A stretch of DNA of 33,766 bases from a virus: positions 1 through 33,766 of the IMG/VR virus record IMGVR_UViG_3300013093_004149. One strand, given 5' to 3'. The notes beneath the pieces are model-generated. The model was not told the origin of the DNA, did not search any database, and saw only the letters and a list, made by a program, of their open reading frames with translations. Shown one piece after another: positions 366 to 15,788 of the stretch (positions are counted from its first letter, which is position 1; each line of letters begins with the position of its first letter). A program made the translations under genes and the position numbers.

Positions 366-394
366 TTGCTTTTAACGCAGTATCATAGTATACT
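366..394 (+). promoter_or_regulatory. possible sigma70-type promoter
   Basis: TTGCTT (366-371) and TATACT (389-394) are separated by 17 bases, upstream of the gene at 425. The -35 is weak. The -10 lies in the palindrome AGTATACT and resembles the TATACT boxes at 26793 and 27186. Confidence 0.35.
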
Positions 395-410
395 TGTTGA
401 GTAAAAACTC

Positions 411-418
411 AATAAATA
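411..418 (+). promoter_or_regulatory. late-promoter-like octamer AATAAATA
   Basis: The octamer has 7 of 8 matches to the T4 late promoter TATAAATA. It follows directly on a small hairpin (TTGAGT, AAAA, ACTCAA at 395-410). Only 6 bases separate it from the ATG at 425, so a transcript starting at the usual late distance would be nearly leaderless. Confidence 0.35.
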
Positions 419-424
419 CACACT

Positions 425-1963
425 ATGATATTTGGATACTTCACCCTAATAGTTGCCTTACTAATCGAAATGGTTGGTGCTTACTACAGTATCACCGGCC
501 TTGCCGCTATCTTTTCGGGTGCGGTGATCCCAATTCTTATCATGGGCGGAAGCCTGGAACTGGGCAAGGTCACTGCCGCAGTTTGGTTAAAGAACAACTG
601 GGAACGAGCCGGCCTACAATATAAACTGTACCTACTACCGGCTGTGGCCATGCTGATGCTGATTACCAGCATGGGTATTTTTGGTTACCTGTCCAAAGCA
701 CACAATGATCAAAATCTAGTATCGGGTGATGTGCAAGCCAAAATTGCCATCTATGATGAAAAGATCAAAACTGCACGGGAAAACATCGAAGCTGATCGTA
801 AACAACTTCGACAAATGGACGATGCTGTTGACCAAGTAATGGGTCGAAGCACAGATGAAAAAGGTGCAGACAAATCGAATGCCATTCGCAAGAGTCAACA
901 ACGTGATCGTGCGGCACTGGCCAAAGATATTGAAGCTAACCAAAAACTCATTGCGTCACTTAACGACCAAGCCGCACCTATACGAGCAGAGGTTCGTAAA
1001 GTAGAAGCCGAAGTTGGCCCAATCAAGTATATTGCTAAATTAATCTACGACGACAATCCCGATGCTAACATATTAGAAAAAGCGGTAACCTGGGTCATTA
1101 TGATTATTGTAGCAGTATTTGATCCACTGGCACTTGTATTAATTCTAGCCGCACAACAATCATTAAAATGGGCCAAAGAGAAAAAAGAAGAAGATGAAGA
1201 TTTACGCATAGATCAAGAACTTGAAGAACTTAAACGTGATTTAGAATTACCAACCGTAGAGGACGACCCTAACACTCCCGATCCAGTTGTGGTAGAGGAG
1301 CCTGCGGCTGTAGTGGCCCCAGAACCTCAAACGGACGTTGACCTTGTCAACGAGCTTGTAGCCGATAACAAACCTGAAAAAGAATTAGAGTACTTTATTA
1401 TTGAGGATGCCGACGACGAGGAAGAACATCCTTACCGTGGACAAGGCCTAGCACCGGGTATGCCATTACAGGCCAGTTATGTACAACCTAAATCTGTAGA
1501 AGAAATTGTAGACGAAATTGTTAAAAAGGTCGCTCCTTTAGAAGAAGCCGAAATAGAAGAGCCCCCTTTAGAATTAGATCCGGTTATCGATGAGCCTAAC
1601 CCACGTGCCAACGAAGCCGCACCCGGTCGCAACCGCGGTATTATTAACACACACCTATTAGCCAAAGCAGACAACGTACCCAATTTAGGTAAAGCAAGTC
1701 ACAGCGACTTTGGTAATATATTTCCTGTAAACCCAGACAAAGGTGATTTGTACCTACGTACAGACTACTTGCCAAATCGTTTGTTCAAATTCAACGGTCA
1801 AAAGTGGATACAGGTTGACAAAGATCAAAATAACATATATGCTTATGAGGATCGCTACATCCGTCATCTAATAGATCAATTAGACGCTGGAAAATATGAT
1901 CCGGAAATGTTAACTGATGTAGAACGTGACCAAATCAAAGACTTTATAGAAAAGAATGCATAG
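425..1963 (+). CDS. membrane and coiled-coil protein with structural-type C-terminal domain
   Basis: This 512-residue protein begins with membrane segments at about residues 3-22, 28-45 and 72-92. A long charged helical region (about 100-195) follows, then another hydrophobic segment near 220-245, a very acidic Pro/Glu-rich linker (about 250-400), and a small C-terminal globular domain (about 425-475) with the GDLYLRTDYLPNRLFKFNG type motif seen in phage structural proteins. From memory, similar proteins are conserved in cyanophages and pelagiphages as coil-containing or membrane proteins of unknown role. The start ATG follows the AATAAATA element closely and has no strong Shine-Dalgarno sequence. 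The stop overlaps the next gene by 8 bases. Confidence 0.85.
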   Translation: MIFGYFTLIVALLIEMVGAYYSITGLAAIFSGAVIPILIMGGSLELGKVTAAVWLKNNWERAGLQYKLYLLPAVAMLMLITSMGIFGYLSKAHNDQNLVSGDVQAKIAIYDEKIKTARENIEADRKQLRQMDDAVDQVMGRSTDEKGADKSNAIRKSQQRDRAALAKDIEANQKLIASLNDQAAPIRAEVRKVEAEVGPIKYIAKLIYDDNPDANILEKAVTWVIMIIVAVFDPLALVLILAAQQSLKWAKEKKEEDEDLRIDQELEELKRDLELPTVEDDPNTPDPVVVEEPAAVVAPEPQTDVDLVNELVADNKPEKELEYFIIEDADDEEEHPYRGQGLAPGMPLQASYVQPKSVEEIVDEIVKKVAPLEEAEIEEPPLELDPVIDEPNPRANEAAPGRNRGIINTHLLAKADNVPNLGKASHSDFGNIFPVNPDKGDLYLRTDYLPNRLFKFNGQKWIQVDKDQNNIYAYEDRYIRHLIDQLDAGKYDPEMLTDVERDQIKDFIEKNA

Positions 1964-2276
1964 TAATTTTATTACACCACCGGACTACGTAGAAACAGTT
2001 TTAATTATCGGTGCTACTGACTTAGAAACAGCTCAGTGCGCTGAAGTTTGTAAAACAGCCAATACCAGCTACGATGTATATTTTTATCGCCCAGCTATGG
2101 CGCAAAAAGAATGGTTAAGCCGTGTGTATTTAAAAGCAGACATAGTATTAAGTCCCCAAGATCTAGCACTGGATTTTTTAGAAGATAGTGCTTTTATAAC
2201 GGACCAAGGAAACAAGATACATTTTTTTGGAACCAAACAAAAAATAGTTACACCAGCAGATTACTTCAATAAATAA
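1956..2276 (+). CDS. conserved-type phage hypothetical protein (106 aa)
   Basis: The start codon lies inside the last codons of the preceding gene (8-base overlap), which suggests translational coupling. The protein has an alternating beta/alpha pattern: a strand-like ETVLIIGATD near residue 13, a helix, YDVYFYRP near 40, and a second strand-like IVLSPQD near 65. This could be a small Rossmann-like or receiver-like fold, but no diagnostic motif is visible. Its last codons and stop (2268-2275) form an AATAAATA element just before the bS21 gene. Function unknown. Confidence 0.75.
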   Translation: MHSNFITPPDYVETVLIIGATDLETAQCAEVCKTANTSYDVYFYRPAMAQKEWLSRVYLKADIVLSPQDLALDFLEDSAFITDQGNKIHFFGTKQKIVTPADYFNK

Positions 2277-2280
2277 ACTT

Positions 2281-2526
2281 ATGGCATATTATAAAGGCGT
2301 AGTTACTTGTAGAGGCAATTCAGTTACAGTCGGTATCGACGGTAACGTAGAAAAGGCAATGCGTAAATTCAAGAAGAAAGTGCTAGAATCTGGCCTACTT
2401 CGTGACCTTAAAGAACGCGAAACCTACGAAAAACCTACTACACGACGCAAGAAAGCTAAAGCGGCGGCCAAGAACCGTTGGCGTAAAAAATTAGCTTCTG
2501 AATCGTTGCCCAAAAAACTTTACTAA
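2281..2526 (+). CDS. rpsU: ribosomal protein bS21 homologue
   Basis: The 81-residue protein matches bacterial small-subunit protein bS21 from about residue 22 to the end. It shows the basic AMRKFKKKV helix, the YEKPTTRRKKAKAAAKNR block that corresponds to bS21 YEKPTTxRKRAKA, and a basic tail ending in LY. The first 20 residues (YYKGVVTCRGNSVTVGIDGN) form a short beta-type extension in place of the usual N-terminus. bS21 sits near the 3' end of 16S rRNA, close to the anti-Shine-Dalgarno region, and helps initiation. Viral bS21 is known from aquatic phages and is thought to replace the host copy and bias initiation towards phage mRNA. The gene is 4 bases after its neighbour. Confidence 0.9.
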   Translation: MAYYKGVVTCRGNSVTVGIDGNVEKAMRKFKKKVLESGLLRDLKERETYEKPTTRRKKAKAAAKNRWRKKLASESLPKKLY

Positions 2527-2541
2527 TTCACGTTTTTCGTG

Positions 2542-2549
2542 TATAAATA
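2542..2549 (+). promoter_or_regulatory. T4-type late promoter TATAAATA
   Basis: This is an exact match to the T4 late-promoter octamer, 66 bases before the hsp20 start. A short CACG-CGTG inverted repeat (2530-2542) precedes it. Confidence 0.7.
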
Positions 2550-2553
2550 TTAT

Positions 2554-2578
2554 TGTAGATGCCCGGGTGGGGTCTACA
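2554..2578 (+). promoter_or_regulatory. 5' UTR hairpin ahead of hsp20
   Basis: TGTAGA (2554-2559) pairs perfectly with TCTACA (2573-2578), with a GC-rich interior in which CCC can pair with GGG. It would lie at the start of the late transcript from 2542. The same layout, an outer 6-bp stem followed by GCTTAATAAAGGA and the ATG, recurs before the phasin-like gene (26819-26846), which suggests a shared leader type, perhaps for mRNA stability. Confidence 0.45.
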
Positions 2579-2615
2579 TTTAATAGTCATACTTGCTTAA
2601 TAAAGGAGAAAAATT

Positions 2616-3071
2616 ATGACACAACTTGAAATTCGCACACTCGATTTACCTTCATTTGTAAACCAAATTCATCGCCAAACAATTGGCTTTGATCGTATGT
2701 TTGAAGAACTAAATCGCACATTCGCCAACAGTCGTACCGACGGCAACTATCCTCCACACAACGTAGTTAAACTAGATGACACTCACTATGTTATCGAAGT
2801 AGCTGTTGCTGGATTTGCCGAAGACGAAATTGATGTTGAACTAAAAGAAAACGTTTTAACAGTCAAAGGCGAGCAAAACAAAAAAGACCAAGAAGTTGAG
2901 TACTTACACAAAGGCATCAGTGCCCGTAATTTTGTAAGAACCTTCCCATTGGCCGAACACATTGAAGTGCGTGGTGCTACAGTCAAAAATGGTATCTTGG
3001 CTATTGCTTTGGAGCAGATTGTTCCAGAGGAAGACAAGCCGAAAAAGATTGCCATTACGTTTGCAAAATAA
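2616..3071 (+). CDS. hsp20: small heat-shock protein, Hsp20/IbpA family
   Basis: This 151-residue protein aligns along its length with IbpA-type alpha-crystallin chaperones. It has the N-terminal TIGFDRMFEELN segment, an alpha-crystallin domain at about 45-140 with YPPHNVVKLDDTHYVIEVAVAG, the VKGEQ strand, the hallmark-type YLHKGISARNFVRTFPLAE and the A-x-x-x-N-G-I-L motif (AxVKNGILAIAL). It is an ATP-independent holdase that keeps unfolding proteins soluble in the cytoplasm. Hsp20 is common in T4-like phages of cyanobacteria and marine bacteria, where it may help assembly or stressed-host protein folding. An AAAGGAG (2602-2608) precedes the ATG, and expression is probably late from 2542. An intrinsic terminator follows. 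Confidence 0.95.
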   Translation: MTQLEIRTLDLPSFVNQIHRQTIGFDRMFEELNRTFANSRTDGNYPPHNVVKLDDTHYVIEVAVAGFAEDEIDVELKENVLTVKGEQNKKDQEVEYLHKGISARNFVRTFPLAEHIEVRGATVKNGILAIALEQIVPEEDKPKKIAITFAK

Positions 3072-3089
3072 ACGAGTAGGCTGTATAAT
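3061..3089 (+). promoter_or_regulatory. sigma70-type promoter upstream of clpS
   Basis: TTGCAA (3061-3066) and a perfect TATAAT (3084-3089) lie 17 bases apart, straddling the hsp20 stop. The predicted start near 3096 falls inside the left arm of the terminator hairpin at 3090-3113. RNA begun here would lack the full left arm and would escape that terminator. Confidence 0.5.
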
Positions 3090-3122
3090 AAAGGGGAGTA
3101 CTAACTTCCCTTTATTTTTATT
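3090..3122 (+). terminator. intrinsic terminator after hsp20
   Basis: AAAGGGGAG (3090-3098), loop TACTAA and CTTCCCTTT (3105-3113) form a 9-bp stem with one G-U pair, followed by the T-rich tract TTATTTTTATT. The clpS start codon lies immediately after the tract. Confidence 0.7.
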
Positions 3123-3455
3123 ATGAGTGAAAAACTAATGTCCAAAACTAAAACGCATATTGACGTGCGCCCACGTATTGACCCAAAAATCAATATTCAA
3201 GAACCACCGCAGTATCGTGTAATTTACATCAATGACGAGCAGACTACACAAGAGTTTGTTGTAGAAACACTCAAAATTATCTTCAACTATGATGAAGGTG
3301 CCGCAATGGCAATCACTATGAAAGTACACGAAGAAGGTTCGGCTGTAGTGGCAGTACTACCATACGAGCTTGCCGAACAAAAAGGTATTGAAGTTACACT
3401 ATTGGCCCGTAATAACGGATTCCCACTACAAGTAAAAATTGAACAAGACGTATGA
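3123..3455 (+). CDS. clpS: ClpS, N-degron adaptor of the Clp protease
   Basis: The 110-residue protein has a flexible N-terminal tail (1-27) and a ClpS core at 28-108. ClpS carries proteins with N-degron residues to ClpA for degradation by ClpP, and the tail engages ClpA. Core residues N37, D38, V46, V68 and H69 match the E. coli pocket residues N34, D35, V43, V65 and H66. E39 replaces D36. The gatekeeper position (E. coli M40) is Q43, and the E. coli M62 position is T65, so the binding pocket is altered. Two starts are possible, 3123 and 3138, differing only in the tail. The stop overlaps the next start (ATGA). A phage ClpP gene is also present at 30909, but no ClpA is seen. Confidence 0.92.
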   Translation: MSEKLMSKTKTHIDVRPRIDPKINIQEPPQYRVIYINDEQTTQEFVVETLKIIFNYDEGAAMAITMKVHEEGSAVVAVLPYELAEQKGIEVTLLARNNGFPLQVKIEQDV

Positions 3456-3928
3456 TTTTTAATCACATTAGAAAATTAAAAGAAGATGGCAAAAAGATTG
3501 GCATCACCTTTAGTACCTTTGATATGCTTCATGCAGGACATATTGCTATGCTTGCTGAAGCAAAGAATCATTGCGATTACCTAATTGCTGGCTTACAAAC
3601 AGATCCAACTATAGATCGTCCTGATACTAAAAACAAACCAGTTCAAAGTATTGTAGAACGTCAAATACAATTGGCCGCTTGTCGTTATGTAGACGAAGTA
3701 GTAGTTTACCAAACAGAACAGGACCTAGTAGACTTGCTATTAATCCTTCCAATTGACATTCGAGTACTTGGTGTTGAATATGAGCAATCGGAATATACCG
3801 GTAAACGTGAAGGACTAATGCGTGGTATTATGCCAATCTTTAACCGTCGTGATCACAGTTTCTCTAGCTCGGGTTTACGTAACCGTGTAGTAGAAGCTGA
3901 GTCAATGAAACTACTCAAGGCAAAATAA
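3452..3928 (+). CDS. cytidylyltransferase-like nucleotidyltransferase
   Basis: The 158-residue protein is a small alpha/beta nucleotidyltransferase. It has the signature HxGH (HAGH, residues 27-30) that binds the nucleotide phosphates, preceded by TFSTFDMLH, and the C-terminal SSSGLR motif (138-143) equivalent to the family's ISTTxLR. Its length and motifs resemble glycerol-3-phosphate cytidylyltransferase (TagD) and the nucleotidyltransferase domain of HldE/RfaE. It would join a sugar- or polyol-phosphate to a nucleotide. The substrate cannot be told from sequence. Coupled by ATGA to clpS and by TAATG to the exonuclease, it belongs to the same operon. A link to the glycan genes at 17-26 kb is possible but unproven. 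Confidence 0.85.
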   Translation: MIFNHIRKLKEDGKKIGITFSTFDMLHAGHIAMLAEAKNHCDYLIAGLQTDPTIDRPDTKNKPVQSIVERQIQLAACRYVDEVVVYQTEQDLVDLLLILPIDIRVLGVEYEQSEYTGKREGLMRGIMPIFNRRDHSFSSSGLRNRVVEAESMKLLKAK

Positions 3929-4461
3929 TGGATGTAATGTTAGACTTAGAAAGTTTGGGCACACGCCCAGACTGTGCTATCCTTACCTTGGGTGCTGTTA
4001 AGTTTGACCCATTTACTCCAGACGCATTTGGCGATAGTTTATACTTCCGAATTGATGTTGATGAACAGTTGGCACTAGGTCGTAATGTACAAGAGGACAC
4101 ACTCAGCTGGTGGATGAGCCAGGCCGAAGATGTACGTGAAGAAGCCTTGGGCGAGCAGGATCGTATTAGCCTGGAAAGTATGTATCGACAACTAAACAAA
4201 TTCTTAGTTGGTGTTGGTAGTATTTGGTGCCAAGGCCCTGCGTTCGACATTGTTATCCTGGAAAACATTTATCGTCAAATGGGCTGGCCCACCCCTTGGC
4301 AGTATTGGCAAATACGTGACAGCCGTACGCTATTTGGTGTACACGGTGATCCACGTGAAAAGAACAAGGCTGGCCTACATAACGCTTTAGAAGATTGTGT
4401 GAGTCAGGCACAAGGTGTACAGGCAATTTACCACGCACTCAAATTGGATCGAGTCAAATAA
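3928..4461 (+). CDS. DEDDh-type 3'-5' exonuclease (DexA/RNase T-like)
   Basis: The 177-residue protein carries the full DEDDh catalytic set: D6 and E8 (MLDLESLG), D107 (GPAFDIVILE), and H151 and D156 (HNALEDC). These residues bind the two metal ions of DnaQ-fold exonucleases. The MxDLExxGxRPxxAIxxxGAVxF start is typical of T4 DexA-like and exonuclease VIII-like phage enzymes that trim 3' ends of DNA or RNA. The start shares an A with the previous stop (TAATG). Probable roles are DNA degradation, recombination or nucleotide salvage. Substrate preference is not visible. Confidence 0.9.
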   Translation: MDVMLDLESLGTRPDCAILTLGAVKFDPFTPDAFGDSLYFRIDVDEQLALGRNVQEDTLSWWMSQAEDVREEALGEQDRISLESMYRQLNKFLVGVGSIWCQGPAFDIVILENIYRQMGWPTPWQYWQIRDSRTLFGVHGDPREKNKAGLHNALEDCVSQAQGVQAIYHALKLDRVK

Positions 4462-4464
4462 ATT

Positions 4465-4770
4465 ATGCAGATAGTCTGGGATCAAGAAGTCGTTGAAAAA
4501 TTAAGCAATAACCATACAGTATTAGAATTGGAATCATTTATGATTAACGGTGAATCTCGTACTGTATATTGTGTTGTACCTCCAGAAAAAATTGGCTTAG
4601 AGGGTTTTGCTACACTTGACGGCCGCAAAGCACTACACAGTCAATTTATTACTGCTTATCACGAAAAAAACTACACTCTTTGTCAAGAATTGTCAGAGCT
4701 ACTAATAGGTTCATTTGGTGGCGAATTAGACAGTTTTTACGAAGAAATCCTTTCTAGAATTACCAAATAA
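4465..4770 (+). CDS. conserved-type phage hypothetical protein (101 aa)
   Basis: Three bases separate this gene from the exonuclease stop. The protein has an N-terminal mixed region (QIVWDQEVVEKL), a beta segment SRTVYCVVPPEKI near residue 30, and a helical, acidic C-terminal half (LCQELSELLIGSFGGELDSFYEEIL). The end is similar in character to phage proteins that carry a C-terminal helix of this kind. No catalytic motif or membrane segment is seen. It closes the clpS operon, as the curli operon begins after a hairpin and late promoter. Confidence 0.75.
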   Translation: MQIVWDQEVVEKLSNNHTVLELESFMINGESRTVYCVVPPEKIGLEGFATLDGRKALHSQFITAYHEKNYTLCQELSELLIGSFGGELDSFYEEILSRITK

Positions 4771-4792
4771 ACCCACATCATTTGTTCTAGAT

Positions 4793-4813
4793 CCTACGAT
4801 AAATACTCGTAGG
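4793..4813 (+). promoter_or_regulatory. late-promoter octamer in the loop of an inverted repeat, heading the curli operon
   Basis: GATAAATA (4798-4805), 7 of 8 to TATAAATA, is enclosed by the perfect 7-bp inverted repeat CCTACGA / TCGTAGG. A second imperfect hairpin, AGAGTC-TTGAC-GATTCT, lies in the leader at about 4816-4833. These are the only promoter signals seen for the curli operon. Confidence 0.55.
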
Positions 4814-4865
4814 AGCAGAGTCTTGACGATTCTACTACCATTATAATAATAAAAGAGGTAGAGTG

Positions 4866-5348
4866 ATGCGTTTTATCAAACAAGCTAGTATAGCTATTCT
4901 AACAGCAACCGCATTTTCAGCGGTAGCTACCCCAATCAATGATTTTTCTTTTAAGAGCCCAGCATTTAACGGTAACGGATATGGAACCTACGTTCTTACT
5001 GTTGAAAACGAACAATATACTAGACAACAAGCCGTATTAGCGGCATTACAGTCTGCTCAACAAGCGGCCGCTAGTGCCGCACAAAATCAACCTATTAATC
5101 AATTCTTAACTAACTTAGAGTCACGCATATACGCCCAGGTTAGTCAAAACGTAGCCACACAGATGTTTGCTGGTGGTAGCTGTAGCGGCGGAACTAGCGC
5201 CTGTAGTGGTAGTATTAACTTTCAAGGAAACACATTGAGTTGGATTAAAGATCCAACAAATCCAACTAATATTTTGCTTACTGTCAGAGATAATGTAGGC
5301 AACACAACGGTAATTAATGTACCGTTAAACTCGTTTAATATGAACTAA
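4866..5348 (+). CDS. csgF: CsgF, curli secretion/nucleation factor
   Basis: A signal peptide (MRFIKQASIAILTATAFSAVA) is followed by TPINDFSFKSPAFNGN, which matches the conserved mature N-terminus of CsgF (FxFxNPxFGGNP). In E. coli this segment inserts into the CsgG pore as a second constriction and helps tether the nucleator. The C-terminal beta region (GNTLSWIKDPTNP to VINVPLNSFN) fits the CsgF fold. At 160 residues it is about 20 longer than E. coli CsgF, with an Ala/Gln-rich helix and a two-cysteine loop (GGSCSGGTSACSG) near residues 101-117. I chose ATG 4866 over GTG 4863 because AGAGG (4853-4857) is better spaced. The csgG start follows 1 base after the stop. Confidence 0.9.
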   Translation: MRFIKQASIAILTATAFSAVATPINDFSFKSPAFNGNGYGTYVLTVENEQYTRQQAVLAALQSAQQAAASAAQNQPINQFLTNLESRIYAQVSQNVATQMFAGGSCSGGTSACSGSINFQGNTLSWIKDPTNPTNILLTVRDNVGNTTVINVPLNSFNMN

Positions 5349-5349
5349 G

Positions 5350-6555
5350 ATGAAAAGATTATTACTTTTATCTTCAATTATTTTAGTGTTATCCGGTTGT
5401 GCTGTTACCCAAAAGGCAGGGCAGTTGGCAGGGATCGAGCACGAACCAAAGGTAGCTGAAAATAAGTTACAAAAAGAGTTTGACGCAGTACCACCGCCGG
5501 CAGGACCAAAGCTAAGTGTAGCAGTCTATAACTTTGCTGATAAGACCGGACAGCGTAAGCCTACTCCGGGAGTGGCAAGTTTTAGTACAGCAGTTACACA
5601 GGGTGCTGATGTATTTTTAATTAAGGCCTTACAAGATGTTGGTAATGGTCGTTGGTTTGATGTAGTTGAACGTGGCAATATTGATGCCTTAACCAAGGAA
5701 CGACTAATCATCAAACAGATGCGAGAAGCATATGAAGGTAAAGATGCTAAACCGTTAATGCCAATGCAGTTTGCTGGTATTATATTTGAAGGTGGTATCA
5801 TTGGTTATGATACAGGATTAGAGTCAGGCGGAGCCGCTTACAGATTTTTAGGTATTGGTCCACAGACACAGTATAGTAAGGATATTGTTACAGTTAGCCT
5901 ACGTGCTATCAGTGTTAACACAGGTAAGATATTGGCGGCTGTAACCGTAACTAAAATCATTTACTCAACAGCAGACTCTGTTGCTATCTTAAAGAGTATT
6001 GATCCGGGGGGTGGTATATTAAATCAAGTGTTTGCTAATAACACAGGAAGTACTAGTGCCACAGCAGGTATATTTGAATTTGAATCTGGTTTAACTATCA
6101 ATGAAGCAAGTACACTAGCTGTTAAAGCGGCTGTGGAAGCGGCAGTAGTAGAAATGATTCGAGAAGGTGAACGCAAGGGTGTATGGGAGTTTCGTAAACC
6201 AGCACCATTGCTAGTACAACAGCCAACAGTGGTACAGCCAGTAGCAGTTGCACCTAAAGCGGAAGAAGTTAAAAAAGAAGTAGAAGTAAAAAAGGAAGAA
6301 CCTAAAGTAGAAGTAAAAAAAGAAGAACCCAAGAATACAACTCAGTACCTAAACGAAACAGCATACTTGTATGCCAAGCCAGATGAAAGTGTTCAAAAAC
6401 GCTGGCAACTGGTTAAAGGTACTCGGTTAGAAGTTATACCTTATCCAACCGGCTGGTATTTTGTAGACGATGGTCAAGGTCATAGGGGGTATGTAAAAGC
6501 GAGTAGTTTAGTAGCATCACCAATGGAGAAGTCGGGGCCAGAGGTCAAGAAGTAA
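5350..6555 (+). CDS. csgG: CsgG, curli outer-membrane secretion pore, with C-terminal SH3-like extension
   Basis: A lipoprotein signal ends in LSGC with C17 as the lipidated cysteine. Residues about 45-290 match CsgG: SVAVYNFADKTGQ, FSTAVTQGADVFLIKAL, RWFDVVERGNIDALTKER, EGGIIGYDTGLESGG and YRFLGIGPQTQY. CsgG forms a nonameric 36-strand outer-membrane channel for curlin export. At the channel constriction, E. coli Y51/N55/F56 correspond to T72/S77/F78 with one extra residue, so the gate chemistry differs. After the usual end (about 285) there is a Pro/Val then Lys/Glu linker with a duplicated VEVKKEEPK unit. An SH3b-like domain (about 333-390, YLNETAYLYAKPDES, RLEVIPYPTGWYFV, GYVKASSLV) follows and would face the periplasm. 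Confidence 0.93.
   Translation: MKRLLLLSSIILVLSGCAVTQKAGQLAGIEHEPKVAENKLQKEFDAVPPPAGPKLSVAVYNFADKTGQRKPTPGVASFSTAVTQGADVFLIKALQDVGNGRWFDVVERGNIDALTKERLIIKQMREAYEGKDAKPLMPMQFAGIIFEGGIIGYDTGLESGGAAYRFLGIGPQTQYSKDIVTVSLRAISVNTGKILAAVTVTKIIYSTADSVAILKSIDPGGGILNQVFANNTGSTSATAGIFEFESGLTINEASTLAVKAAVEAAVVEMIREGERKGVWEFRKPAPLLVQQPTVVQPVAVAPKAEEVKKEVEVKKEEPKVEVKKEEPKNTTQYLNETAYLYAKPDESVQKRWQLVKGTRLEVIPYPTGWYFVDDGQGHRGYVKASSLVASPMEKSGPEVKK
6280..6333 (+). repeat. 27-base tandem repeat in csgG linker (2 copies)
   Basis: Two adjacent copies (6280-6306 and 6307-6333) each encode VEVKKEEPK and differ at a few positions. They form the charged linker between the CsgG core and the SH3-like domain. Confidence 0.8.
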
Positions 6556-6585
6556 TAAAGGTCATTGACCAAGGAATGAAGTAAA

Positions 6586-7470
6586 ATGAAAACAAGACTA
6601 GCTAAAATAATAACAACAATGCTAGCCGTTGCGATGTGTGTAGGTGTCAATGCTGCCGATAACAGCATATACATCGATCAATCAGGTAGTGGAGCAACAG
6701 TCAACGTAACGCAGAACGGTTTTGGTAACGTTGTAAGAGGTGTTCAGCCAATACAAGGTGGGGACGATAATACCGTCGCGGCTAAACTTAATGGCGATAA
6801 CGCATTGGTCAGTATTAACCAAGTTGGTAACCAAAATAAGTTAGATGTTAGCATGGTAGGAACTACACTAGGTGGAGGTTCGGTACCAACAGTAAACTAT
6901 AGCGTACAGGGTAATAGTGCTCGCGCTATATTAGATCTTAACAGCGACGGACAAGGTACATTTGCCAGTAGCTCAGTTGATATAACACAGGTAGGTAACA
7001 ACGCACAAGCCTTAGTTAAAATGACTGGCGGAAATAACAGCCTAAGTGTTAATACAGCTGGTGGTGATAGCAACTCAGTAACAGCTAATATATCCGGCGA
7101 TGCTAATACAACAAGAATTAGTTTAAGTGGTGGCGGCAATAATAACGCAACAGTAACACAGCAAGGCACAGGTAGTAATGCAATTGGTATCAATTCCAGT
7201 GGCGTTAACAATGCTTATACTATAAACCAAAATGGCAGTAACAATACCGCTAGCATAGGTGGTTATGCTGGATCGGGCAGTAGCATGGTTGGTAACGATA
7301 ACGTAGTTGGTATTACACAAGGTGGTATTGGAAATACCGTAGCATTAGGTATGACTGGTAGCAGTAACCAAGTGTCGATTACCCAGTCAACAACAGCTGA
7401 CGCTAACACCGCTAACTTAAAAATTAACGGTAGTAGTAATACTGTGAATATAACACAGAATAATCACTAA
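6586..7470 (+). CDS. curlin-repeat protein (CsgA/CsgB-like), first copy
   Basis: This 294-residue protein has a signal peptide (MKTRLAKIITTMLAVAMCVGVNA). The mature part consists of Asn/Gly/Gln/Ser-rich curlin-type repeats, where units such as SIYIDQSGSGATVNVTQNG, VSINQVGNQNKL, VDITQVGNNAQ, YTINQNGSNNTA, VGITQGGIGNTV and VSITQS recur about every 20 residues. This is the S-x5-Q-x-G-x-x-N-x-x-x-x-x-Q pattern that stacks into the cross-beta amyloid of curli. The protein is about twice as long as E. coli CsgA. It begins with SIYIDQ, like the second curlin at 8750. Whether it acts as major subunit or nucleator is undecided. The AAGGA near 6570 is the likely ribosome binding site. Confidence 0.85.
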   Translation: MKTRLAKIITTMLAVAMCVGVNAADNSIYIDQSGSGATVNVTQNGFGNVVRGVQPIQGGDDNTVAAKLNGDNALVSINQVGNQNKLDVSMVGTTLGGGSVPTVNYSVQGNSARAILDLNSDGQGTFASSSVDITQVGNNAQALVKMTGGNNSLSVNTAGGDSNSVTANISGDANTTRISLSGGGNNNATVTQQGTGSNAIGINSSGVNNAYTINQNGSNNTASIGGYAGSGSSMVGNDNVVGITQGGIGNTVALGMTGSSNQVSITQSTTADANTANLKINGSSNTVNITQNNH

Positions 7471-7471
7471 T

Positions 7472-7648
7472 ATGGTAGACTTACGCTTCCTACAAATGAT
7501 GTATCAACAATGGAGCGACGGTCAAACTAATATTGCGTCAAGGTGGATAGATTTCATTGAGCTGGCCAGTCGTCATACTGGTCTAGCTCAAGATCAATTA
7601 ATGCGAGAGTTACAGAAATGTTATTGGTTCGAACACAAAGGAGACTAA
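7472..7648 (+). CDS. small hypothetical protein (58 aa) inside the curli operon
   Basis: The ATG is 1 base after the curlin stop. The product, starting MVDLRFLQMMYQQWSDGQ, is helical and lacks a signal peptide, so it would be cytoplasmic. It contains WIDFIELASRHTGLAQDQL and ends WFEHKGD. Its last codons carry the AAAGGAG (7637-7643) that could serve the start at 7650 or 7654. It overlaps the longer possible FecR start by 31 bases. No family recognised. Confidence 0.6.
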   Translation: MVDLRFLQMMYQQWSDGQTNIASRWIDFIELASRHTGLAQDQLMRELQKCYWFEHKGD

Positions 7649-8748
7649 TATGGATGGTAGGACTATTCGTACTCTGGCTGAGTATATCACAGAGCTCAAA
7701 CGCCGCGATCGGGACTATAACGGAACAGTTGAACAGCCCAGCTTCGATACAACGGTCGAAGACGACACTAACTGGGACCAAGGGCGTCGGGGTGGAGATG
7801 GACGACGCAGTGAAAACGACGCAGGGTAAAGTTGGTATTACATTTGCAGATGATACAAAGGTACAGGTAAATGAAAACTCACGTTTGGTCATTGACGACT
7901 TTGTCTATGACCCTAAAGCAAAAACTGGTAAACTTGCCCTTAACATGGCTAGCGGCACAGTTAGATACGCATCAGGGGCGATTGCTCATAACAATCCTAA
8001 TAAGGTGGCTATCAACACTCCTACTGCTACCATTGCTGTTCGCGGTACTGATTTTACTGCTACTGTTGACGAACTTGGCGCAAGTACAATAATCTTATTA
8101 CCTAGTTGTCCCAACGGATTTGCTGATGTTAAACGTGATTGTAAAACAGGTATCATTGATGTTATTACTGATGCTGGCACCGTTACATTAGATCAGGCAT
8201 TTCAAGCAACTAAAGTAGAGTCACGTAGTCAACCCCCAACTAAACCTGTAACAATTAATCTTAGTCTTGATGCTATGAATAATCTGTTGATCTTGACTCC
8301 TCCCCCAGAGTTAAAGCGAGCACAGCAAGAATCTAGTACAAACAAGGCAAGTTTATTAACACAAGATTTTCTTAAAGAAGCAGACTTGGGCAACGTACTT
8401 GCCGACCAACAACGACAAATATTTCAAAATCGTTTAGCACAAAACTTTTTAGATCAGGATTTTTTGGCCAATATTCTTACAATGTTGAATCAAGAACTAC
8501 AGGCCGAGCTACAATTATTAAACACAACCAACAATGGTTTATTGCCAGATTATCGTGCCAGCACTGGTATCAAGGCCTATGTAGATGATTCATCTGTTAC
8601 ACTATATCGCGATGATGGTAGCAACAAAGAAAGCGTTACAGTGAATCGTAACGAAACAGCTACAGTTTATATGACGCAGGGTCAGTATACATTTAAGAAT
8701 CGTATTAACTCTGGTAGTGGCACAACAATAACAGTAAAGCAGAACTAA
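7618..8748 (+). CDS. secreted FecR-domain protein
   Basis: The FecR-type domain spans about residues 30-150. It shows a GTITEQLNSPASIQR-like opening, the DDAVKTTQGKVGITFADDTKVQVNE block, LNMASGTVRYASG, and the INTPTATIAVRGTDFTATVD motif typical of FecR domains. A Gln/Leu/Asp-rich helical part (about 225-310) and a beta-type C-terminus follow. Start 7618 gives a signal peptide with a positive n-region (RTQRR) and a hydrophobic core ending SSNAA. Start 7654 sits 10 bases after AAAGGAG but lacks positive charge, so the start is undecided. FecR proteins usually sense or stabilise envelope systems; such domains are often encoded beside CHASE2 cyclases, and one is at 13734. Lying between two curlins, it may be a curli cofactor. 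Confidence 0.88.
   Translation: MLLVRTQRRLIWMVGLFVLWLSISQSSNAAIGTITEQLNSPASIQRSKTTLTGTKGVGVEMDDAVKTTQGKVGITFADDTKVQVNENSRLVIDDFVYDPKAKTGKLALNMASGTVRYASGAIAHNNPNKVAINTPTATIAVRGTDFTATVDELGASTIILLPSCPNGFADVKRDCKTGIIDVITDAGTVTLDQAFQATKVESRSQPPTKPVTINLSLDAMNNLLILTPPPELKRAQQESSTNKASLLTQDFLKEADLGNVLADQQRQIFQNRLAQNFLDQDFLANILTMLNQELQAELQLLNTTNNGLLPDYRASTGIKAYVDDSSVTLYRDDGSNKESVTVNRNETATVYMTQGQYTFKNRINSGSGTTITVKQN
7650..7829 (+). CDS. possible overlapping ORF (59 aa) within fecR
   Basis: This frame starts 6 bases after AAAGGAG (7637-7643), the best-placed ribosome binding site here. It encodes a hydrophilic product beginning MDGRTIRTLAEYITELKR, with an acidic middle and an RRGGDGRR segment. It lies wholly inside the fecR N-terminal region in another frame. 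It may be an overprinted gene, or the start may be bypassed in favour of 7654. No homologue is recognised. Confidence 0.25.
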   Translation: MDGRTIRTLAEYITELKRRDRDYNGTVEQPSFDTTVEDDTNWDQGRRGGDGRRSENDAG

Positions 8749-8749
8749 A

Positions 8750-9562
8750 ATGAAAATTATTGTTATTGTGTTAATTTTAATTGCTGGACTTGAGTATTGC
8801 TCACGTCCTCACGCTCAAACGGTATCTATTGTGGGAGTTGATGCTGGACTAGCTATAGCAAATTATCAAAACAATCCTAGCATTTATATAGATCAAGTTG
8901 GTAGCAGTAATCACGTGATCATACAACAAAATGGAGTTAATAGTGTAGGCGGTGTTAGTCAACAATCAATGCCCGTACAAGGCCAGGGTAACACAGTAAA
9001 GATACGTCAAGGCGATCCCAGTAATCCTGTTGGATCGAGTGCCATTAATGCCGCAGTCTATGGAGACTACAATTACTTAGGACTTAACCAAGGTATTACA
9101 TTAGCCAATCAAACTAACGGACAGGATACAGGTCAACATTATCAATCAGTCTCAGTAACTGGCACAGGTAACCAAGTTAATACAGAACAAACTAATACAG
9201 GTGCTGGTGCCCATTACCTATCGACTGCGGTAACTGGAAACTATAATACAGTTAATGCAAGTCAAACGGACAATACTGCCAAGAGTGCGTCGGTTACAGT
9301 ACAAGGTGACCTTAACAACGTACTAACTAGCCAATCGGGCACAGGTGCTCATAGTTTGGCTGTTAACCTATTGGGTAACAGTAACTCAGCTACAGTTAAT
9401 CAATCAGGATCAACTGCTAATTCGGCTAGTATTTCAATTACCAATGCTGGCGGTCCAGGTAGTGTAAATTTAACACAAACAGGTGGTCAAAATTATTACA
9501 TCAATACAGTTTGTGTACAAGCCGGAGGATGTACTCCTATTACTGTAAGGCAAGGTAACTAG
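8750..9562 (+). CDS. curlin-repeat protein (CsgA/CsgB-like), second copy
   Basis: This 270-residue protein has an N-terminal hydrophobic export signal (MKIIVIVLILIAGLEY, then a probable cleavage after PHAQ). Its mature part carries curlin-like repeats: SIYIDQVGSSNHVIIQQNG, VQGQGNTVKIRQG, VTGTGNQVNTEQ, VTGNYNTVNASQ, VQGDLNNVLTSQSG, LLGNSNSATVNQSG and VNLTQTGG. It shares the opening SIYIDQ(S/V)GS with the first curlin but the repeats diverge, which fits a major/minor subunit pair. The C-terminus has a two-cysteine loop (CVQAGGC) followed by ITVRQG, which could cap the fibre or form a disulfide. It starts 1 base after the FecR stop and closes the secretion operon. Confidence 0.82.
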   Translation: MKIIVIVLILIAGLEYCSRPHAQTVSIVGVDAGLAIANYQNNPSIYIDQVGSSNHVIIQQNGVNSVGGVSQQSMPVQGQGNTVKIRQGDPSNPVGSSAINAAVYGDYNYLGLNQGITLANQTNGQDTGQHYQSVSVTGTGNQVNTEQTNTGAGAHYLSTAVTGNYNTVNASQTDNTAKSASVTVQGDLNNVLTSQSGTGAHSLAVNLLGNSNSATVNQSGSTANSASISITNAGGPGSVNLTQTGGQNYYINTVCVQAGGCTPITVRQGN

Positions 9563-10038: not shown

Positions 10039-12033
10039 ATGAAGTTTTTCACCAAGGCCTTAGTGGCCATTTCAGTGTGTCTAAGCCTATCGGCACAGGC
10101 ACAAAGTCTACCAGCAGGTAGCATAGGCTCAGTTCAGGGTAACACAGCCAATCAGTTTAGTAATTATTCATTTAATTTTACCGCTGCCAGTTCGGGTAGC
10201 GATTATGTAGGTTTTGCCTTCCGCCAAGACCCAGCTTACTGGACATTCCAAAATCCGTCAGTGACCACAGGCGGTGGTAGCAACTTGCTGACCAACGGTA
10301 GTCTAAGCGCAGGCGGTCCTGTGCAGGTCACAGTCAACGGTGGCACACAAACAATCAATGCTCCAGCAAACTGGGGTGTGTGGTATCAGAATGGTACTTA
10401 CCCGGCTGCCGCAGGCTCTTGGTCAACAGGTCAATGGTATGATGGTGCTGTCGGCTCGTTTGATGGTATCTATCAGGGTTTCACTGTAACCGGCGGTGTA
10501 ACATACACTATTACATTCACTGCTATGAGTAACAACGCAGTAGATAATAATGCTATTCAGCTAGGTGTTTATGCTGGTCCTTGTACTAGCTTAACACTGG
10601 CCGCTAGTCAGTGCGTACCAAACCTGTCAAGTATGGGCATTATAGCACAACCAAACCAAACAGTTAATGCGGGTAACCCAAGTGCTCCGCCTGTACCACC
10701 AAGTGCTCCAAGTACTCCAACTGTAGTAAGCACAGCCAATGGAACTCCTACAGTAGTTAGTACAACAGCAGATGGCGTAACTGTAGCAACTACAGCAAGC
10801 ACACGTGGCACCACAGCAACAGCAGTAGCTACTACACTTGGCACAACCGCAGTGGCCACAGCAGTTACTGATAGCCGTGCCAGTCAAACAGCACAGAACT
10901 TAAACATTAATCATAATATAACCGTTACAAGTACAACACCGGTAACAACAGTAACTACAAGTACAACACCAATTACTACAGTTACAACTTACACAACACC
11001 ACGTACAGTAACAACAGTAACAACTCCAACATACGTTGATACATACAGCGACGGTAGCACACAAACACGTACAGGTACTCCGGTAACTACAGCTTCAACT
11101 ACTAACATTGTTACAACATCAACCGCAGTGGTTAATGAAGTTCTAACAGCAACAGCACACAGCAACAATGTTGATGTAGCAAGTACTGATACCGGTTACT
11201 CAACACGTATTGACCAATTTGCCAAACTTGGAACAGCAAACAACCGTATGAATGAATCCTTAGACAGTGATCCATATACACGTATTCGTGTTGAAGATGG
11301 TCAAATTCATCAACGTGATTTAAGTGGTCGTGACTATAACTTTTATGTTACAGGTACAGGCCTACAATCAAATACTAAAGATACTTACAACTATTCAGGT
11401 AGCGTATTTGGTCTAGGTATTGAAAAATTAGTTAGCCCTACAGCATTGGTTGGTATCCAATACAATCACGGTACTGTAAACTTGTCAGGTGATCAATCTG
11501 CTGGATCATTAACTAAAGAATCAGCTGGTGTTTATGTAGTTAAGAGTTTTGAAAACGATGTTATGGTTAAAGGTGACATTGGCTATGCTCAAAACACTTA
11601 TAACACAGCACACAGTTTACCAGCCCTAGGTTACAATAATACTGGATCCGCTAGCGGTACTGATAGTTGGGCACAGATCAAAGTTTACTCACCAGCAGTT
11701 AAAGGCTTCCGTGCTTTTGTAGGCGGACGCAGTGAGTCAAATCAAATTGATGCGGTAAAAGAAACTGGTCCAGCATTAACAGCAATGACGTATGCGGCAA
11801 CTACACAAGTTAATAACTCAGGTATTGCTGGTCTACGTTATGATCATAACTTTAATAAGAACTGGGCTGTGGGTGCCGAAGTTGGACATTATACAAATAA
11901 TACAACTGCCAGTGCCATTAACTTTACCTATCATGATGATAAGAACAGTAGCGTATTGTTAAAGATTGCTCGTCAGGATCAATATGGACAAGCAGTTAAT
12001 ACAGCATCATTACAGGCAAGAGTTAACTTTTAA
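10039..12033 (+). CDS. secreted Thr-rich surface protein with C-terminal outer-membrane beta-barrel
   Basis: The 664-residue protein starts with a clear signal peptide (MKFFTKALVAISVCLSLSAQA). Residues about 25-195 form a beta-rich globular domain (SNYSFNFTAASSGSDYVGFAF to YAGPC). A long Pro- then Thr/Val-rich linker (about 210-370) contains TTPVTTVTTSTTPITTV-like repeats. Residues about 395-664 have the alternating amphipathic strands of an autotransporter-type barrel and end ASLQARVNF, with the terminal Phe used as an outer-membrane insertion signal. This suggests an adhesin displayed on the infected cell surface with the N-terminal part as passenger. A transition to autotransporter type V secretion is inferred, not proven. 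It follows the curli operon under its own late element and ends before a terminator. Confidence 0.82.
   Translation: MKFFTKALVAISVCLSLSAQAQSLPAGSIGSVQGNTANQFSNYSFNFTAASSGSDYVGFAFRQDPAYWTFQNPSVTTGGGSNLLTNGSLSAGGPVQVTVNGGTQTINAPANWGVWYQNGTYPAAAGSWSTGQWYDGAVGSFDGIYQGFTVTGGVTYTITFTAMSNNAVDNNAIQLGVYAGPCTSLTLAASQCVPNLSSMGIIAQPNQTVNAGNPSAPPVPPSAPSTPTVVSTANGTPTVVSTTADGVTVATTASTRGTTATAVATTLGTTAVATAVTDSRASQTAQNLNINHNITVTSTTPVTTVTTSTTPITTVTTYTTPRTVTTVTTPTYVDTYSDGSTQTRTGTPVTTASTTNIVTTSTAVVNEVLTATAHSNNVDVASTDTGYSTRIDQFAKLGTANNRMNESLDSDPYTRIRVEDGQIHQRDLSGRDYNFYVTGTGLQSNTKDTYNYSGSVFGLGIEKLVSPTALVGIQYNHGTVNLSGDQSAGSLTKESAGVYVVKSFENDVMVKGDIGYAQNTYNTAHSLPALGYNNTGSASGTDSWAQIKVYSPAVKGFRAFVGGRSESNQIDAVKETGPALTAMTYAATTQVNNSGIAGLRYDHNFNKNWAVGAEVGHYTNNTTASAINFTYHDDKNSSVLLKIARQDQYGQAVNTASLQARVNF
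10921..11032 (+). repeat. Thr/Val low-complexity repeat in the barrel protein linker
   Basis: Recurring ACAACACC and GTAACAACAGTAACTAC blocks encode TTP(V/I)TTVTT-type units. They form an extended, possibly glycosylated stalk between the passenger domain and the barrel. Confidence 0.65.
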
Positions 12034-13011: not shown

Positions 13012-13737
13012 ATGGCGATAAACATTGGCAATGGCGTAAATATTGGGGGTGGCATCAGTATAGATGTTAATGTGCCAACACCTAGTATTTTGACATCGGG
13101 TTTAGTAATGAACCTGGCTACAGCTCCTGTTAGTGCTACCAATGGTACAGCCTGGACCGACACATCAGGTAGCGGAAATAACGCTACCTTAGTTGGAATT
13201 GGCACATTAGCCTACACCGGTAGTTATGGTGGTGGTATTACTACTACCGGTGGGTCATATATTTCCACTGGTTATAATTTTTCTAGTAATACCTTTACAA
13301 TTAGTATAGCCGCATCATTTAATCCAGCATCTTATTGGTCAACTATATGGGCCGATGAAAGCTGGAGTGCCGGTAAAGGATACCTTTGTTTCTTTGGTAG
13401 TGCCGGTGTTATTAGTGTCGGATCTCCAAGCGGAGGAGCAAGCTATAGCATAACAGGTTATACTAGTGTGGCCATATGGGATTTTGTAATAAGCGGTACC
13501 AGTGTAACAGTTTTTAAGAATGGAACATCATTGGGAACCAGCACATTTGTGGCCCCCGGTGGCGGTTATTCTACTACTAATTTATATTTTGGTGCTCGCC
13601 ATACTAACGGTGGTACGGGCTATACAGATACTATTCCTGCTACATTTTATAGTATGCGAGTTTACAATCTAGCATTGACTAGTACACAAGTAACACAAAA
13701 TTATTCTGTCTTAAAAGGCACATACGGATTACCATGA
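13012..13737 (+). CDS. LamG/concanavalin A-like lectin-fold protein, probable fibre or surface protein
   Basis: The 241-residue protein opens with a Gly/Ile repeat (INIGNGVNIGGGISIDVNV) typical of phage fibre and tail-tip proteins. Residues about 28-235 read as a LamG-like jelly roll: WTDTSGSGNNATLVG, FTISIAASFNP, WDFVISGTSVTVFKNGT, YFGARHTNGGTG and FYSMRVYNLALTSTQVTQNY. The last is the classic LamG final strand with its RVYNxALTxxQV signature. Such domains bind carbohydrate. There is no signal peptide, so a virion role is plausible. The stop overlaps the cyclase start (ATGA), so the two are translationally coupled, which is odd for a structural protein next to a signalling enzyme. Confidence 0.8.
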   Translation: MAINIGNGVNIGGGISIDVNVPTPSILTSGLVMNLATAPVSATNGTAWTDTSGSGNNATLVGIGTLAYTGSYGGGITTTGGSYISTGYNFSSNTFTISIAASFNPASYWSTIWADESWSAGKGYLCFFGSAGVISVGSPSGGASYSITGYTSVAIWDFVISGTSVTVFKNGTSLGTSTFVAPGGGYSTTNLYFGARHTNGGTGYTDTIPATFYSMRVYNLALTSTQVTQNYSVLKGTYGLP

Positions 13738-15788
13738 TGATCAAAAAAATCTTAACCAGTCCTTGGACTGCTCTTTTAACCTTAGCTTTAGTATTAAGCG
13801 TTCGTATCGCTGACCCTACATTTGTTGAATCGGTTCGCTTACGTTATTTTGATACTCTAGTTACAAGTAAAGCACCAGAAGCAATCGGTGTAAGTGTAGT
13901 AAACATTGACGAGAAAGCGTTAGAACGATATGGCCAGTTTCCTTTTAGCCGCGACACATACGGTAACATTATTCGGGATCTTTACAGACGTAATGCTGGT
14001 CTCGTGGTGTTTAATATCCTTACTCCTGATAAAGACAGGATGGGAAAAGATGCGGAATACATCCAAGCACTAAAACAATTTCCAACTATACTGCCTAGTA
14101 TCGGTAGTACACAAACTCGTAATAGCCCAAGAGCACCAGGCTCGGTAATTATTGGTCCATTTGGTCTTGATACGTTTGTAACTTATCCAGGACTTATTGC
14201 CAACATACCCGGTGTTGAACAAGCGGCTGCCGGTGTTGGTATTACAAACACACTACCTGAAGTTGATGGTGTTGTACGTCGTATGCCACTAGTTGTTGCT
14301 TACGATGGTAAACTGTATCCAAGCCTGGCAATGGAGACGCTACGTGTTGCTGGCGCAGACTCTACTGTACAGATCAAAGTAAATGAGAATGGTGTTGAAA
14401 AGATGCGTATTCCAAAGTTTGGTCCTGTTACGACAGATAGTTTATCACGCATTTGGATTGACTGGTCATTAAAGCCAGATGTTTATAGTTTAACTGACTT
14501 GCCTAAAGATTTTGACGGCGAGATCGTTATTGTAGGTGTAAGTGCTCAGGGTCTAAGTAACCCTGTTGCTACAAGTTCAGGCGAAATGTTGCCACAAGAT
14601 TTACAAGCGGCTGTACTGGGTACTGTAATTGCTAACAAAGATCGTGCTGTAATTACACGTCCAGATTGGGCAGAAGGCGCAGAAGTATTAGGTCTACTTG
14701 CCATAGGTGTTTTATTAATTTTCTTATCAAGGTGGACTTATGTTGGTATTATTTCAAGCTGTGTTATTATCGGTGGTAGTATTCCTCTTTCTAATTATTT
14801 GTATAGATCTCATTCTTGGCTATTCGATGTTTCTGCTTTGGTTGGTGGTCTTGTTCTTGTGGCTCTCCATACTTACGGGGTAAAGTTTATAAGTGAGTTC
14901 TTACAGAAGCAGGCTATCAAGAAACAGTTTGCCGGCTACTGTAGTAAAGAAGTTGTAGAGATGCTACAGAAAGATCCGGAGTTAATTAAACGTGGTGTAC
15001 GTAAAGATGTAAGTGTTATGTTTAGTGACCTGCGTGGGTTTACTCCAATCGGTGAACACTACGGCGATGATGTAGCTGGGCTTACAAAATATATGAATGG
15101 CTATATGGATGCCATCAGCAAGCCAATGCTGGATAATCGAGGTATGGTTATTAAGTATGTAGGTGATGCAAGTATGCATATTCACGGTGCTCCTATTGAT
15201 GATACTCGTCACGCACACACTATCATCCAGGTTGGCTTAGATATGCTAGATGCAGTTGATGAGTATACTAAACAGATGGAAGCCCAAGGCTTACCTCCTG
15301 CCGCAATGGGTTGGGGTTGTAACACAGGTATTGGCTTTATTGGCGAAATGGGGTCAACCCAACGACACAGCTATGATATCTTAGGTGATATGGTTTCAAC
15401 AGCGGCACGTCTTGAAGCACGTTGTAAGGCCTATGGTGTGTTAAACATTGTTGGTGCTGAAACATACAACAGAACTAAAGATGACTTCTTCTACTTGCTG
15501 TTAGATAACCTACAACCTAAGGGCAAAACAGTAGCTGACTTGATCTACACAGTTCTACGCACACGTGGTGTTGACTATACAAAAGATCGTGAACAGCACG
15601 ACAAAATGCATTCTCTATACCGAGCCAAGAAGTTTGATGAGGCTGCCGCGATGTGTAAAAAACTAGCAGGTAATTTTGGTGGGCAGATGGATAAGTATTA
15701 CAAGATTTGGATTGAACGTTGCGACTTTATGAAGCAACAAGATTTACCAGATAATTGGAATGGCGAATTCATAGCCCACGAGAAATGA
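13734..15788 (+). CDS. CHASE2-domain class III adenylate/guanylate cyclase
   Basis: This 684-residue inner-membrane protein has one N-terminal helix (about 8-25) and an extracytoplasmic CHASE2 sensor (about 30-300, VSVVNIDEKALERYGQFPFSR at its start). Three membrane helices (about 316-385), a cytoplasmic class III cyclase domain (about 425-600) and a short TPR-like tail (about 620-665) follow. Metal-binding D432 (FSDLRGF) and D478 (YVGDASM) are present, as are K474 and D548, which match the adenine-selecting Lys and Asp, and R559. The transition-state Asn is S555 (GDMVSTAARLE). Most features point to conversion of ATP to cAMP, but the Asn to Ser change leaves activity to be tested. CHASE2 cyclases are bacterial signal proteins; here one lies in apparent phage DNA. 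Confidence 0.93.
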   Translation: MMIKKILTSPWTALLTLALVLSVRIADPTFVESVRLRYFDTLVTSKAPEAIGVSVVNIDEKALERYGQFPFSRDTYGNIIRDLYRRNAGLVVFNILTPDKDRMGKDAEYIQALKQFPTILPSIGSTQTRNSPRAPGSVIIGPFGLDTFVTYPGLIANIPGVEQAAAGVGITNTLPEVDGVVRRMPLVVAYDGKLYPSLAMETLRVAGADSTVQIKVNENGVEKMRIPKFGPVTTDSLSRIWIDWSLKPDVYSLTDLPKDFDGEIVIVGVSAQGLSNPVATSSGEMLPQDLQAAVLGTVIANKDRAVITRPDWAEGAEVLGLLAIGVLLIFLSRWTYVGIISSCVIIGGSIPLSNYLYRSHSWLFDVSALVGGLVLVALHTYGVKFISEFLQKQAIKKQFAGYCSKEVVEMLQKDPELIKRGVRKDVSVMFSDLRGFTPIGEHYGDDVAGLTKYMNGYMDAISKPMLDNRGMVIKYVGDASMHIHGAPIDDTRHAHTIIQVGLDMLDAVDEYTKQMEAQGLPPAAMGWGCNTGIGFIGEMGSTQRHSYDILGDMVSTAARLEARCKAYGVLNIVGAETYNRTKDDFFYLLLDNLQPKGKTVADLIYTVLRTRGVDYTKDREQHDKMHSLYRAKKFDEAAAMCKKLAGNFGGQMDKYYKIWIERCDFMKQQDLPDNWNGEFIAHEK

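Follow-up and report, generated by a model that had tools for sequence, protein, structure and literature searches.

The stretch analysed here, called the window, is the IMG/VR virus fragment IMGVR_UViG_3300013093_004149, 33,766 bases in length. It holds a whole curli cassette in the order CsgF-CsgG-curlin-FecR-curlin, with a cyclase gene further downstream:

4863..5348, + strand: CsgF homologue, 161 aa (Pfam CsgF 7.8e-7, over the cut-off; PHROG 35372)
5350..6555, + strand: CsgG pore protein with a C-terminal extension, 401 aa (Pfam CsgG, PDB CsgG)
6586..7470, + strand: curlin-repeat protein, 294 aa, a candidate fibre subunit (Pfam Curlin_rpt 4.4e-14, 8 stretches)
7472..7648, + strand: small 58-aa ORF (more than a dozen loci have a relative at this position)
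7618..8748, + strand: FecR-domain protein, 376 aa (Pfam FecR 4.9e-11; PHROG 37870 1.7e-126)
8750..9562, + strand: second curlin-repeat-like protein, 270 aa (other loci have relatives at this position)
13734..15788, + strand: CHASE2-guanylate/adenylate cyclase (profile match; relatives downstream in many loci)

When the window's CsgF was searched against the PDB, no CsgF chain was matched, and one low-complexity-looking match to a designed protein appeared (1e-4, each piece insignificant). The second curlin-like protein has one weak Curlin_rpt place (4.0e-4), and another search gave none at E <=10. The FecR-domain protein starts with an apparent cleavable Sec signal, as judged by eye, and is therefore probably exported rather than the iron regulator suggested by its name and by the available text of PMC9599517. 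The CHASE2 cyclase is set apart from the curli genes by other ORFs, among them that of a 664-aa exported protein (10039-12033) with an autotransporter-like barrel end recognized by eye, no Pfam match and relatives in L024, L052 and L082. On the minus strand, a fatty acid desaturase gene (15902-16609; PF00487, 1.3e-13) offers a possible lead to the host. No near-identical cultured phage was found for the first 25 kb of the window, and the neighbouring ClpP and nucleotidase used as queries returned distant phages only.

The pore gene itself is clear. Residues 53-217 match Pfam CsgG (PF03783) in a profile search (E 6.2e-40, 137 bits vs a cut-off of 20.8), with a second Pfam CsgG piece in the C-terminal part of ORF 5350-6555, and residues 1-285 align with solved E. 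coli CsgG chains in the PDB (phmmer, E 1.7e-38). An N-terminal lipobox, LSGC with Cys17, can be read in the sequence, and the LPAM_1 match (0.023) lies below its cut-off. The protein shares with E. coli CsgG (3x2r, 4uv3, 6l7a) the core, the lipobox, the position of the constriction loop and a CsgF partner gene. It differs in about 120 extra residues with an SH3b domain, in a 20-residue extra loop and in having T/S/F in place of Y/N/F at the constriction; further, unlike the E. coli curli system, the window yielded no CsgE gene. Because CsgE is not defining outside the model gammaproteobacteria, membership of the CsgG and curli family stands despite its absence, and the ORF is assigned on sequence grounds as the CsgG of the curli type VIII secretion family. 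Its parts are the following:

5500..6201, + strand: CsgG core, residues 51-284 (phage CsgG alignment and PDB alignment)
5557..5586, + strand: constriction loop, residues 70-79, with T72, S77 and F78 (PDB alignment, phage/bacterial comparison)
6004..6063, + strand: insertion of about 20 residues, residues 219-238 (vs E. coli CsgG and most phage CsgGs)
6202..6336, + strand: linker, residues 285-329 (V/K/E/P-rich, mostly predicted disordered)
6278..6331, + strand: duplicated 27-base unit coding VEVKKEEPK (two copies, tandem-repeat search)
6337..6513, + strand: SH3b-like domain, residues 330-388, including W369 (profiles, fold prediction, structure comparison)
6514..6552, + strand: C-terminal end, residues 389-401 (DNA kept in L007, which is without the SH3 domain)

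The insertion at 219-238, which we place in the outward-pointing second membrane hairpin of CsgG, is common to the window and its nearest relatives (e.g. L005, L008, L010 and L013) and has low pLDDT in the full-length AlphaFold2 model.

Relatives were collected by scanning viral contigs with short peptide patterns of the window CsgG, some of them located in the tail, and 80 viral loci were kept. From 62 distinct proteins, with the window added and the near-copies L004 and L060 and a short L019 fragment left out, 60 non-redundant rows were obtained, all of which (60/60) match Pfam CsgG. For comparison, 42 bacterial CsgGs were retained from 47 ORFs after dropping two that were too distant, one partial second copy and two repeats; L083 and L084, both among these 42, may represent phage sequence within a metagenome bin. 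With phmmer, T72/S77/F78 fall opposite E. coli precursor residues Y66/N70/F71, presumably mature Y51/N55/F56, with one inserted residue. This is the alignment given in the preliminary description of this DNA, and no realignment to Tyr/Asn/Phe emerged. The further idea that the changed constriction is special to this protein did not survive the comparison. Among the 60 phage rows the Tyr51 position holds Q in 31, T in 12, V in 8, A in 4, I in 2, S in 2 and a gap in 1, and Tyr in none; the Asn55 position holds S in 58, N in 1 and a gap in 1, and the Phe56 position L in 39, F in 20 and a gap in 1. Even in bacteria Tyr51 is found in just 7/42, and the window's loop length, together with Ser at the Asn55 and Phe at the Phe56 position, recurs in 6/42. 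The constriction was accordingly rejected as a special feature, since it falls within ordinary variation among the 60 phage and 42 bacterial CsgGs.

Past the core, the window protein continues for 117 residues after residue 284, while E. coli CsgG has 277 residues in all, in agreement with the extension of about 120 residues described earlier. The VEVKKEEPK duplication described with it is an exact 9-residue repeat coded by a 27-base unit (TRF: 1.9 copies at 6278-6329, 96% match, score 97). The full-length AlphaFold2 model gives pLDDT <50 across most of residues 286-326; because of its modest overall confidence (mean pLDDT 69, pTM 0.49), this model was used for the tail only. Across 35 tailed proteins located with a tail profile, which was built from the tails that it then found and is in that sense circular, the linker ranges from about 37 to 113 residues. 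Because its length varies so widely, the linker is better seen as a probable leash than as a rigid part.

The end of the leash is folded in the predictions. The isolated window tail falls just under the Pfam cut-offs, with 25.9 bits against 27 for SH3_3 (E 1.1e-5) and 22.9 bits against 24.1 for SH3_4 (E 7e-5). Homologous tails match SH3_4 in 18/29 and SH3_3 in 17/29 cases at E <=0.01 (best 8.6e-11), and that of L035 reaches 38.9 bits with SH3_4. A profile of the other phage tails of the main class (type I, see below), built with the window and L009 left out, gives the window tail 60 bits; this profile and the Pfam scan of 29 tails are the less circular of the tail checks. AlphaFold2 predicts for the tail alone an SH3-type barrel whose last strand is preceded by a short helix (pLDDT 85.6), and residues 330-388 have pLDDT about 95-97 in the full-length model. 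The predicted structure is thus a confident SH3-type barrel and not disorder throughout. Profiles, fold prediction and relatives agree on a module of SH3 type carried by a flexible linker with repeats, which is what the preliminary description had read from a single sequence. Because other phage tails pass Pfam, the profile reaches 60 bits and AlphaFold2 returns a barrel, we regard the call of residues 330-388 as a bacterial SH3 domain, albeit one modelled rather than solved, as above doubt.

The top structural matches of the predicted tail are largely cell-wall SH3b domains. They include those of the NlpC/P60 enzymes NlpC1 and NlpC2 (Z 8.5, 10.2), of the phiSM101 (Psm) endolysin 4krt (Z 9.3, rmsd 2.5, 67 aligned) and of InlB (Z 7.8), with a Bacteroides dipeptidyl-peptidase VI near the top. 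YrvJ, an integrative model that superposes at rmsd 6.7, heads the list with Z 10.4. Numerous peptide-binding SH3 domains of eukaryotes are matched as well, at Z 6-7, and the Foldseek E-values against the PDB lie just above 0.001. W369 is Trp in 24/24 type I tails (alignment A2), W or Y stands at 352 and an aromatic residue at 381 (each likewise in 24/24), and SH3 identity among type I members drops to about 20%. The window SH3 is not notably positive in charge (7 K/R vs 6 D/E). The nearest folds, namely the SH3b domains of endolysin, NlpC/P60 and InlB type, together with W369 make peptidoglycan binding plausible.

The preliminary description was silent on the whole cassette of this virus fragment and on the tail being common to many relatives. 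SH3 tails of type I occur in 25/60 phage rows and divergent SH3-like tails, type II, in 5/60 (30/60 together), whereas 27/60 are complete without SH3 and 3/60 are truncated where the contig stops; the sorting into type I, type II and no tail was done by eye, and the tailed share is a biased estimate because some search patterns lay in the tail. The CsgGs without SH3 either stop right after the core or carry the linker alone. We are less sure of type II as SH3-like on its sequence features: all five have Val at the position of W369, none of the five matches an SH3 family in Pfam, and comparison of the type I and type II profiles gives 83% probability over 36 columns only. The contigs of L003 and L004 break off at the linker with its repeats or at the opening residues of SH3, which may reflect assembly trouble at the linker repeats. 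A viral scan with the window tail as query added L145, a known CsgG on the contig of L003, and a chance match, L146.

The tail has come and gone repeatedly. On a tree built on the CsgG core with the tail left out, the three tail states take at least 11 changes, against a shuffled mean of 22.4. When bacterial and cultured-phage CsgGs are included, the SH3 tail needs 10 changes, 7 of them forced by well-supported branches. The tail is missing from the bacteria, from the cultured phages and from the earliest branches (L076, L077 and L080), which points to a gain within the phage group, on a tree with several long branches and a root that is not firm. In L007 the pore is 93% identical to that of the window and the SH3 domain is missing; core residues 51-215 are identical at 162/165 positions, and the DNA of the last csgG codons is still there. 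L005 shares 159/165 core residues with the window but only 18/59 in SH3. In the other major clade, L009 has a core of about 74-75% identity to the window, yet shares 28/37 residues in the linker and 43/60 in SH3 (these segment counts for L005, L007 and L009 come from global pairwise alignments, in which the linker may shift by 1-2 residues). L005 and L037 make a second discordant pair (core 70%, SH3 75%), and over 276 pairs of type I proteins the identities of core and SH3 correlate weakly (Spearman 0.31). Because it is absent from the close L007 and common to the distant window and L009, the tail behaves as a swappable module.

Similar behaviour is seen for the cassette as a whole. Most loci keep the same cassette gene order, whatever the CsgG tail, and the CsgF and curlin-repeat neighbours keep theirs in nearly all. 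The window (1-9562) and L074 (135-6030) share a closely similar run of Hsp20-ClpS-cytidylyltransferase-exonuclease genes before the cassette, 87-96% identical (the adjoining 101-aa ORF 67%), while their cassettes are far apart (CsgF 51%, CsgG 48%, curlin 37%). Such similar genes ahead of very different cassettes make the cassette look like an exchange hot spot, and by these comparisons both the tail and the whole cassette are evidently exchanged as modules. A derivation of the SH3 domain from some other gene carried by these phages was considered and rejected: in 16 records the tail profile matched seven at their own tailed CsgG, plus marginally G035 (0.005, internal stop), and revealed no donor gene.

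Phage curli (T8SS) cassettes have been in print since 2020, in pelagiphages and in Melnitz (PMC7029224, PMC9599517, PMC9004378), so phage csgF-csgG is already known and the system itself is not new. As far as the available parts of these papers go, the window is like the pelagiphage and Melnitz cassettes in its csgF-csgG-curlin-FecR-curlin order, in the cyclase nearby and in having no CsgE. The CsgGs of Melnitz and HTVC008M, at 278 and 280 aa, have no tail, unlike the tailed protein of the window at 401 aa, and are 40-42% identical to its core. No SH3-tailed CsgG was found in searches of the open PMC literature. Of two papers that combine the words CsgG, SH3 and curli, one mentions SH3 in its accessible text just within a reference (PMC7217966) and the other uses it of a different protein (PMC8159010), and the word SH3 is absent from the accessible text on Melnitz (PMC9004378). 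What is new here, judging from the alignments and the tree of the pores, is the recurrent predicted SH3 tail on phage CsgGs, with about ten changes.

The pairing of CsgG and SH3 may not be unique to phages, as two bacterial loci (from the phylum of a Bradyrhizobium) suggest. L131 and L136 each encode a CsgG-family domain followed by a weak SH3-like C-terminus; the CsgG match is divergent in L131 (1.3e-20) and weaker in L136 (4.6e-10), compared with 6.2e-40 in the window, and the SH3 scores are marginal (SH3_4 0.0023; SH3_2 0.22). Among the ORFs of 50 bacterial loci (L083-L132) there was no match at E <=1 to the phage-tail profile, which is narrow and missed the weak SH3-like end of L131; L136 lies outside that set. 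The bacterial sequence inspected comprised 30 + 9 + 10 loci, part of 122 genomes with a CsgG-family match. In one metagenome bin, Rhodobacteraceae Water_Bin34, there are four CsgG-family matches, and those of L083 and L084 cluster with the CsgGs of cultured phages, so that the bin may contain phage contigs.

The preliminary description had also proposed that the tail might replace CsgE. CsgE (PF10627) was detected in 0/39 viral records, all of them fragments or of unknown completeness, while the E. coli control was positive. In 27 of these records the CsgG has a tail of type I or II and in 12 it has none, and CsgE is missing from both sets alike; the tail therefore does not track CsgE loss, and a role as a CsgE substitute was rejected. 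In the available text, printed pelagiphage curli modules are without CsgE (PMC9599517), and CsgE is described as absent from alphaproteobacterial and phage modules.

In known CsgG pores the ring sits in the outer membrane with its C-terminus in the periplasm, and a periplasmic position of the window's tail would follow from this. The reading that we prefer, at a rough probability of 0.5, is that the tail tethers the pore to peptidoglycan in the periplasm. The CsgG core of this phage-borne cassette would assemble into the usual lipid-anchored ring and, together with the neighbouring CsgF, would let the next-door curlins out of the infected cell. The tail would hang in the periplasm as a flexible leash of about 45-55 residues with an SH3b end, in up to nine copies per pore, and binding of these SH3b domains to peptidoglycan would tether and position the pore. 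We favour tethering because a periplasmic leash with an SH3b domain can reach peptidoglycan and because TagV offers a printed parallel. TagV, a lipoprotein of the outer membrane, has a 4krt-like SH3b domain as well as a conserved Trp, and it has been proposed to bind peptidoglycan and to support a type VI secretion machine (PMC7614798). Going by the available part of that paper, TagV resembles the window CsgG in combining an SH3b of endolysin Psm (4krt) type with an outer-membrane lipoprotein tied to a secretion machine; unlike the window protein, it is a separate accessory protein and not fused to a pore, and its peptidoglycan binding is itself a proposal. Against a tether stand the dispensability of the tail, the type II domains without the Trp, the lack of marked positive charge and the eukaryotic SH3 matches. 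Among non-redundant proteins with complete tails 27/57 are without SH3, as are Melnitz and HTVC008M, and no clear substitute wall-binding domain was seen in the tail-less records among 16 searched, where the only OmpA-type domain belongs to G007, whose CsgG is tailed, and the one additional SH3 match, in G035, is marginal.

Those eukaryotic matches, at Z 6-7, bear on a different role, as SH3 folds bind peptides too. The SH3b domain might recruit or gate a substrate: in the periplasm it would bind a curlin or the FecR-domain protein and thereby feed or plug the pore. The absence of CsgE, the usual cap, from 39/39 viral records would leave room for such a part, and frequent exchange of the tail would be in keeping with partners that vary from cassette to cassette. 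However, CsgE is absent with or without a tail, 12 of the 39 records being tail-less, and tail-less pores keep the same neighbours; L005 and the window have a core identity of 96% and a FecR identity of 87%, but share only 18/59 SH3 residues. We consider recruitment or gating unlikely. The same exchange could arise if the tail were a near-neutral passenger, spread by recombination at a repeat-prone 3' end and with no consistent function, as its patchy distribution with about ten changes, the tandem repeats in the linker and the loss of SH3 from L007 with both flanks kept might indicate. Open frames and an SH3 core that is kept across diverged tails (W369, W/Y352 and the aromatic 381) speak against this, and make a passenger more unlikely still.

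Proposals in print for the purpose of phage curli, in the portions available, range from sibling capture to lysis control. Lysis timing, with the pore as a gated secretin or pinholin, has been proposed for the tail-less CsgGF of Melnitz in the available text of PMC9004378, and an SH3b tail could bring such a pore to the wall due for cutting. The window tail resembles the domain of the phiSM101 endolysin, and phage endolysins commonly use SH3b for targeting. The curlin-repeat genes directly after csgG in the window point instead to fibre export, the Melnitz record too is annotated with two curlin-repeat genes beside csgG, and no lysin was identified beside the cassette in a search that was not systematic. 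Of the readings weighed here, lysis timing appears the least probable.

Returning to the tether, its frequent exchange permits a tentative extension, possible though doubtful in our estimate. The pore may be wall-docked and modular, with the SH3b domain as an interchangeable adaptor that is swapped from one phage curli cassette to another independently of the pore and is under selection to diversify in a manner akin to receptor-binding modules. If this is true, during infection the pore would dock to wall states or partners that differ. The tail looks wall-binding, is often swapped and can be cleanly removed, and so provides a handle on the role of the pore during infection, and it suggests a ready-made way of fixing a CsgG-type nanopore to peptidoglycan.
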